Positions 1-25,766 of a stretch of 25,766 nucleotides of DNA are shown here, piece after piece. The stretch lies in the IMG/VR virus record IMGVR_UViG_3300030102_003688, positions 1 to 25,766 of that record; one strand, given 5' to 3'. The notes beneath the pieces were generated by a model. It saw nothing but the letters and a program-made list of their open reading frames with translations, ran no database searches and had not been told where the DNA came from. The translations under genes and the position numbers were made by a program. The first letter of the stretch is position 1, and every line of letters starts with the position of its first letter. The stretch comes from a virus.

Positions 1-151
1 CATAATAGTCATAAACTTATTATACAATATTTACAGGTATTGTGTCAATTATTATGTAATAGTTGTTTTTCCAAAAAAAAAGAAGCACACAGAGACCTTT
101 TAAAGGGGGTCTAAAGGGATTGGTGGGGTGTTTGTATACGGGTAAAAACCG
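1..151. other. Non-coding AT-rich left end
   Basis: No convincing gene is seen here. The first 65 bases are almost all A/T and carry a small inverted repeat (ATAATA at about 3-8 with TATTAT at about 19-24). Bases 95-114 can form AGACC...GGTCT. On the leftward strand this lies downstream of the last gene of the cluster and before a T-rich run (the A-run at about 73-82), so it may act as a weak transcription end. This is inference only. Confidence 0.4.
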
Positions 152-1720: not shown

Positions 1721-2059
1721 ATGAAAACAAAAAACATAACACATAACCAATTGGTTGGCTACTGGGCTAAGACAAAAGGTATAACATCAAAAGATTTGGA
1801 AACACATAAACAAATCAATGACGTTGTATTGTTGCTTCAGTTCAAAGATCATTTCAATGTTTATTTTACAAAGAGTGAAACAGCCAGTTGGGGTGCGATA
1901 TGGGGAATAGTTTATCATAAGAAAAGATCCCTAAAACAAAAACATCTACACACACTGGCTAACATAGGCAAAAGAATAAAACACAGGCAAGAAAAAATAA
2001 AACAACTCAGGCAACAAAACAGAGACCACTCAGTCAATAAAACTCAGGGTGTAATATGA
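1721..2059 (+). CDS. Hypothetical basic protein
   Basis: This 112-residue protein begins MKTKNITHNQLVGYWAKTKG. A central part contains VVLLLQFKDHFNVYFTKSE and SWGAIWGIVYHKK. A long basic, Gln/Lys/Arg-rich helix follows from about residue 70 to 100 and is probably exposed or nucleic-acid binding. I do not recognise the family. The start at 1721 is chosen because the promoter's -10 box ends at 1706 and upstream codons of this frame lie inside the promoter. There is no Shine-Dalgarno sequence, so translation may be near-leaderless. It is the only rightward gene before the terminase, and its promoter carries a palindrome, so it could be an early or regulatory gene. Its stop lies in a long-range pairing segment (2056-2065). 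Confidence 0.65.
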   Translation: MKTKNITHNQLVGYWAKTKGITSKDLETHKQINDVVLLLQFKDHFNVYFTKSETASWGAIWGIVYHKKRSLKQKHLHTLANIGKRIKHRQEKIKQLRQQNRDHSVNKTQGVI

Positions 2060-2357
2060 CGGCTAATGACCTTGATGCGGTATATGATTCTTGTTTATCA
2101 TGTACAATCGTAAGTGCCGCTCCTACCCTTTAAAGGGTTGCAGTTCCAATACATCAGTCTGCACAAAGGAGAAACAAGTCGTGTGTGAGTCATCCAAGAC
2201 CACATCGTAAGGCGGTTATGAAGTAGTATTTTTTTTAGATACTATTTCGCATAGCCGTCGTGCGATCAAACATCCAAGTATCTCTCTAGATCATATAGAA
2301 AAAGATAATAGTAATCACTGAAGGTGATTACTTGATTGACAACGAAGTTGTTGATCA
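2056..2357 (+). other. Gene-free, hairpin-rich region before terS (candidate cos/pac site or structured RNA)
   Basis: This stretch holds no convincing gene but many inverted repeats. (a) TATATGAT 2081-2088 pairs with ATCATGTA 2097-2104. (b) ACCCTTTAAAGGGT at 2125-2138 is a perfect palindrome. (c) TGCAG 2139-2143 pairs with CTGCA 2159-2163. (d) A hairpin of about 19 bp has arms 2211-2229 and 2239-2259, a T-rich loop and a 2-nt bulge. (e) AGTAATCAC 2310-2318 pairs with GTGATTACT 2324-2332. (f) The adjacent 11-bp hairpin 2333-2357 has loop GAA. GACGGCTA 2058-2065 is also complementary to TAGCCGTC 2252-2259, competing with hairpin (d). Phage packaging sites often lie next to terS, so a terminase recognition region is plausible. 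An RNA element in the read-through transcript is the alternative. Confidence 0.5.
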
Positions 2358-2386
2358 GACCTAGATCAAAGTGAATCAAACAAATT

Positions 2387-25052: not shown

Positions 25053-25456
25053 CAATACACGAACTCCCCTCCTGCCCAACCAATGGTGTCCTGCCACATC
25101 CGCTTGGCCTGTCTGTTCCTGTCCACTTGCCTGGTGAAGCCAATGACCATGGTACCTTGATGTTTGGTGTGTGCCTGGCCGTGTGAATCTAGACTGTATG
25201 CTTGTAAGTTGAAACAACAGGGTGTGATCAACGAATCCCAGTCAACAGGATCCTGACGCACAACTATGAGGAAATAACGATAAGGCCACATGGCCAACAT
25301 CATGCCACGGAATCCTGTGTGTTGCCACTGAGCCCTCTTGGATATATGTGCGGAATCACAATGCTTGTGTAAGTTGAATTGACTGTGTTTTATGGCTTTG
25401 ACCGCCTTGGGATACACATAACTTTTGGGTGCTTGAGTTCTTTTTGCTTGTGACAT
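25052..25456 (-). CDS. Hypothetical protein coupled to the HNH-like gene
   Basis: This 134-residue protein begins MSQAKRTQAPKSYVYPKAVK and is basic and rich in His, Trp and Gln. The middle has WPYRYFLIVVRQDPVDWDSL and the end TRQVDRNRQAKRMWQDTIG. I do not recognise it. It is GC-richer than the structural genes, as is its partner, and its TGA overlaps the partner's ATG (TGATG). It may be a DNA-binding or accessory part of the same mobile unit. An AATAAATA octamer lies 9 nt before its ATG. Confidence 0.6.
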   Translation of the reverse strand: MSQAKRTQAPKSYVYPKAVKAIKHSQFNLHKHCDSAHISKRAQWQHTGFRGMMLAMWPYRYFLIVVRQDPVDWDSLITPCCFNLQAYSLDSHGQAHTKHQGTMVIGFTRQVDRNRQAKRMWQDTIGWAGGEFVY

Positions 25457-25465
25457 TGTTAATTT

Positions 25466-25473
25466 TATTTATT
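25466..25473 (-). promoter_or_regulatory. Late-promoter-like octamer AATAAATA before the HNH pair
   Basis: On the leftward strand AATAAATA is followed by 9 nt and ATG at 25456. It suggests that the HNH-like pair is read as a late gene. Confidence 0.5.
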
Positions 25474-25656
25474 AAACAGATGCATTATCCTATCTACTTT
25501 GTATGTGCAAAGAGATATTGATCACTATAGAACACAATGGGAAAGATGGGTCATATGATTCTAGCGACCATGGTTGTGCAAAATAGGGGGCTACCCCCAT
25601 TGTAGAATAGTAAGGGAAACTATAGGCACAATGGACAAGGTGGTTATAGAATAGTA

Positions 25657-25664
25657 TATAAATC
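25657..25664 (+). promoter_or_regulatory. Possible late-promoter-like TATAAATC
   Basis: It differs from TATAAATA only in the last base and directly follows the second TAGAATAGTA repeat. No gene starts after it inside the window. Confidence 0.3.
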
Positions 25665-25766
25665 TAACGGCCCCGCCCCCATTGTGTCAACCTTTTCAAA
25701 ACAATTAATCAGTAAAAAAGATCTTTTATCTGGTTGACTGAACCCTAAGGTTCAAGTACAATTGAC

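Follow-up and report, generated by a model that had tools for sequence, protein, structure and literature searches.

An exchangeable RNA cassette in marine phages and the probable trans-acting structured RNA that occupies it upstream of terS

Structured RNAs in phages and the locus under study

Structured RNAs of phages are poorly known outside tRNA clusters. Phage T4 encodes two small stable RNAs, C and D, in its tRNA cluster, the function of which is unknown, and the packaging RNA of phi29 is also a phage RNA. GOLLD and ROOL are structured non-coding RNAs of phages and prophages with unknown function (PMC12286853). The manA and wcaG motifs, together with other marine and cyanophage motifs, are structured RNAs from marine metagenomes and phages and are represented in Rfam (PMC2864571).

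The locus described here belongs to the IMG/VR virus record IMGVR_UViG_3300030102_003688, positions 1 to 25,766; the whole 25,766-nt stretch is referred to as the window. This 25.8 kb record carries terS, terL, scaffold, capsid, tail tube and tape measure genes. TerL of its closest IMG/VR relatives is 93–97% identical, and no relatives of terL were found in bacterial genomes. Hairpins are clustered between divergent operons, in a stretch free of genes. Both ends of the window (1–48 and 25460–25766) are also gene-free, and a promoter with 12/12 consensus matches at position 48 on the − strand is directed off the contig.

The RNA of this locus is similar to GOLLD and ROOL in being a structured non-coding phage RNA without an assigned function. 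However, GOLLD and ROOL are larger (many GOLLD RNAs exceed 800 nt) and often lie near tRNA islands, while the window contains no tRNA and has no Rfam match. manA and wcaG have been proposed to regulate specific genes that lie downstream of them, whereas the module described below has no Rfam match and no consistent downstream gene. T4 RNAs C and D are likewise small and phage-encoded, but by description they are smaller and belong to a tRNA cluster. The phi29 packaging RNA was considered because terminase genes are nearby in the window. Unlike it, the RNA studied here has no Rfam match, TerS and TerL are both present, and the module is unlinked to terminase genes in relatives.

The cassette in the window and in its relatives

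In an alignment of the window with L001, L003, L004 and L012, the closest relatives match at 88–90% from about position 2307 onward, the match resumes upstream of about 1612, and there is none between. By this alignment the region from about 1613 to 2306 is an exchanged segment, and the relatives hold other sequence there. The features of the region are as follows.

1590–1612, + strand: left edge of the sequence common to the closest relatives; the exchanged segment begins after it
1623–1650, + strand: decayed version of the RNA promoter seen in relatives, recognised by alignment (TTGACA changed to TTGGAA, TATAAT to CACAAA)
1678–1706, + strand: predicted sigma70-type promoter, TTGACA-17-TATTAT, 11/12 consensus matches
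1721–2059, + strand: P0003, a small gene of 112 aa; in-frame coding score 0.20, similar to that of TerS (0.13)
2055–2306, + strand: RNA D, a structured non-coding segment with two near-equal folds according to folding energies; no homologue
2310–2332, + strand: hairpin 1 of the double hairpin, 2310–2319 pairing with 2323–2332, 10 bp, loop GAA; complementary in relatives
2333–2357, + strand: hairpin 2 (TGATTGA...TTGATCA), 2333–2343 pairing with 2347–2357, 11 bp, loop GAA

In relatives the module consists of a strong sigma70-type promoter, followed by about 300–400 nt of gene-free RNA and then by the double hairpin. Judged by sequence, 11 of 12 modules begin with a near-consensus promoter (10–12 of 12 consensus matches), the exception being L053. 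The slot between promoter and double hairpin holds RNA A, B or C where the window has P0003 and RNA D. These are three mutually unrelated sequence families: A (L001, L003–L006, L053), B (L007, L008, L012, L052) and C (L009, L010, L051/L057, L054). Near-identical phages have the same flanks and a different RNA. The window shares with these modules the conserved 3′ double hairpin and a near-consensus promoter upstream; the order is decayed promoter, new promoter at 1678, P0003 and RNA D, so that the new promoter sits about 350 nt before RNA D with one gene between. The decayed promoter retains TATAAATA at 1636–1643, and a TATAAATA-like sequence is also present inside the RNA promoters of relatives.

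The double hairpin was found in every module and forms its 3′ side. In the window it is unusually stable (z −5.57). The sequence of hairpin 1 varies among phages and its arms remain complementary. In hairpin 2, pairing is kept in 121/121 cells across 11 sequences, with three pairs altered on both sides. It is important to note that two wobble pairs in hairpin 2 are invariant; they are U–G and G–U on the + strand and would be A–C on the − strand, which indicates that the + strand is the structured one. Searching IMG/VR with the hairpin-2 pattern gave 13 contigs, all of them true modules and three of them new. The same pattern had 25 matches in bacterial genomes, all by chance and none with a module. 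In the window the double hairpin is not followed by a U-run terminator. In several of L012, L008, L052 and L053 a third hairpin (GGTCAA...TCAACC) comes just after it, and in several relatives a terminator-like hairpin, AAAAAGGC...GCCTTTTT, does; both are absent from the window.

Covariation had been proposed as a check of the locus. The double hairpin and families B and C show compensatory changes; in family A covariation is weak. For family B, both partners differ in 7 of the 10 pairs tested, and pairing is 100%. For family C, both partners differ in 6 of 38 pairs, or in 8 of 38 when a fifth copy is counted, which comes from G001, adjoins a run of N and may be a scaffolding effect. Since the sequences are few and the B and C structures were partly picked by eye on the same sequences used for counting, these counts are supportive but do not amount to a formal R-scape test. 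The N run in G001 lies within L057 3268–3710, where two family C RNAs stand in tandem around it, either by duplication or by a scaffolding join. Covariance models R1 (family C), R2 (B) and R3 (A) recover their own members at high scores and nothing else convincing. Altogether, the comparison yields three alignable families, two of them with covariation, and the double hairpin can serve as a tag for finding further RNA families.

Two further elements were noticed upstream of the module. At 1500–1591 there is a second conserved gene-free element with a hairpin (CCCTG...CAGGG), then AAGGAG and a short frame beginning with ATGTCA. It is kept in L001, L003, L004 and L012, and other relatives carry a different hairpin there. 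Directly before the module promoter in L009 (1117–1190), L010 (1731–1800) and L008 (upstream of the module) lies a long-loop hairpin of about 70 nt, the arms of which vary yet stay complementary.

Folding of RNA D and searches for related RNAs

The hairpins listed in the original prediction, including the back-to-back pair and the long hairpin, are where it had placed them. The claim that the region is gene-free holds for 2055–2357, where coding scores are negative in all six frames. Its start needs a small correction from 2056: the preceding ORF runs to 2059, and its stop codon is where the element begins. The total stability of the region is beyond chance, mainly on the + strand. Positions 2050–2400 fold with −99.4 kcal/mol and z −5.05 on the + strand, against z −2.8 on the opposite strand, and for the core 2055–2262 the values are −5.75 on the + and −3.1 on the − strand. 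When the whole window was scanned on both strands, the interval 2161–2360 (+) ranked first among 854 intervals of 200 nt (z −7.27), and the runner-up was 2101–2300 (+) with z −5.37. Folding z values of families A, B and C are about −1.3 to +0.5. They are thus not exceptionally stable, unlike RNA D, and D may belong to another class of element that occupies this slot.

RNA D has two fold options. In one, a closing helix joins 2055–2065 with 2252–2262; in the other, a long hairpin is formed by 2204–2231 and 2237–2266. The central observation behind this, that TAGCCGTC (2252–2259) is a perfect complement of GACGGCTA (2058–2065) and has an alternative partner, proved correct; the alternative partner is 2211–2219 (2211–2220 had been given), and two competing folds exist. 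The energy model gives −73.4 and −73.0 kcal/mol for the two folds and weights of 79% for the long hairpin and 21% for the closing helix. As one 8-nt complement inside 300 nt is about the chance expectation and near-equal folds are common at such length, these features by themselves do not demonstrate a switch, for which the modelled near-equal folds would be weak evidence.

That the region encodes an undescribed RNA is supported by the lack of an Rfam match, the stability of the + strand, the module in relatives and the compensatory changes. It also resembles no tRNA or known riboswitch, as had been claimed: no tRNA or tmRNA was found in the window, and no Rfam 15 family scored above its gathering score. 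Permissive Rfam scans gave just sub-threshold chance matches, and Rfam has no family for RNA A, B, C or D. A literature search for such an RNA in marine phages found none. The template repeat of a diversity-generating retroelement was tried as a candidate and rejected, there being no repeat between 1500–2400 and the rest of the window.

RNA D scored at noise level with models R1–R3 with filters off, and blastn gave no homology to A, B or C and no homologue in phages. An exact 18-mer search had a single match, in L020, which is unrelated, and a search with the 15-nt loop of RNA D had 104 matches, none with extended similarity to D or a matching stem. Searching via P0003 found no homologue of RNA D either. 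By these sequence comparisons RNA D is a singleton so far, and since no homologue was found, covariation does not extend to it.

Possible roles of the cassette and its relation to terS

The gene downstream of the module is inconsistent: it is terS in some phages and various unrelated small ORFs in others. Two features mark the terS side of the locus in the window.

2387–2394, + strand: AATAAATA, just 5′ of the terS start; stays with terS when the module sits elsewhere
2400–2852, + strand: terS (phrog_51, E 8.5e-26; PF03592), a neighbour outside the module

The module lies directly upstream of terS in the window, L001–L006 and L009. In L010 and L008 it is 0.5 kb and 1.2 kb upstream, respectively, with genes between, and the intervening ORFs have their own promoters. 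The RNA or the module is also present in G001–G004, which lack this TerL. In G002 the module is at 0.7–1.0 kb and the terminase at 12.2 kb, about 11 kb away; in G004 the module co-occurs with a terminase of another PHROG; and in G002–G004 it precedes unrelated ORFs. As the downstream genes vary, control in cis is argued against.

The module and the exchange of its RNA are seen directly in the comparison of relatives. We consider it probable that the segment in the window is one form of this exchangeable cassette and that RNA D is a structured RNA acting in trans. RNA D would be transcribed and would function as an RNA. If this is true, a host-type promoter at 1678 would start a transcript containing P0003 and then RNA D, and this transcript would end near the double hairpin or run through it. 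The RNA may then act in trans on a target that is a host or a phage factor, with the double hairpin as a common 3′ element that serves stability, processing or protein binding. That near-identical phages swap unrelated RNAs suggests a role in which variety is an advantage, for example in dealing with host defence or rival phages, and turnover of the slot may reflect interaction with the host or with other phages. A slot with different RNAs and a common 3′ element in near-identical phages would indicate RNA-level functions under turnover. It is unlikely, though conceivable, that the locus goes further and is a hypervariable one, where marine phages swap at least four unrelated structured RNAs, one of them with a basic protein, between strong promoters and the common double hairpin; these RNAs would be interchangeable trans effectors that counter host defence or phage competitors.

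Another way to see RNA D is as a structured 3′ UTR of the P0003 mRNA, or as an RNA that works with the basic protein P0003, and not as a free small RNA. P0003, which looks coding, is the sole gene separating RNA D from the promoter, and the family A RNA of L053 likewise follows a small basic ORF with no adjacent promoter. The C-terminal half of P0003 is rich in Lys and Arg, and we suggest from its sequence that it could bind RNA D; no relatives of P0003 were found, and Pfam gave just one weak sub-threshold match. In most relatives, however, the RNA comes straight after the promoter with no ORF, which makes this explanation rather improbable.

A cis-acting leader or attenuator, in which the two folds of RNA D toggle terS expression, we hold to be less probable again. 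The near-equal folds and the position directly upstream of terS would suit it. However, L008 and L010 have separately promoted ORFs between module and terS, the module precedes unrelated ORFs in G002–G004, and terS has a AATAAATA signal of its own whatever the position of the module. A riboswitch or cis leader would have a consistent type of downstream gene, which the module lacks. Because AATAAATA is kept with terS regardless of the place of the module, it is likely a separate signal for terS expression.

A cos or pac packaging site with TerS-binding palindromes, which the original prediction had named as an alternative to an undescribed RNA, would account for palindromic DNA adjoining terS. 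Such a site would stay with its terminase genes; the module lies apart from terS in L008 and L010 and from terL in G002, and occurs with a different terminase family in G004, and its conserved G–U pairs suit RNA, not DNA. Since the module and terS are not linked in relatives, the packaging-site reading, like that of a terS leader, is unlikely, and we regard it as highly improbable. A replication origin, or another kind of DNA hairpin region, would fit gene-free hairpins clustered between divergent operons, but is just as improbable, as the strand-biased stability, the promoters, the conserved G–U pairs and the complete replacement of helices within families B and C all favour RNA.

AATAAATA is also found on the − strand at 850–863, 1463–1482 and 25456–25473. 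Several genes without a clear Shine–Dalgarno sequence have it a few bases 5′ of their start codons, and it may be a late promoter of the phage that gives very short leaders.
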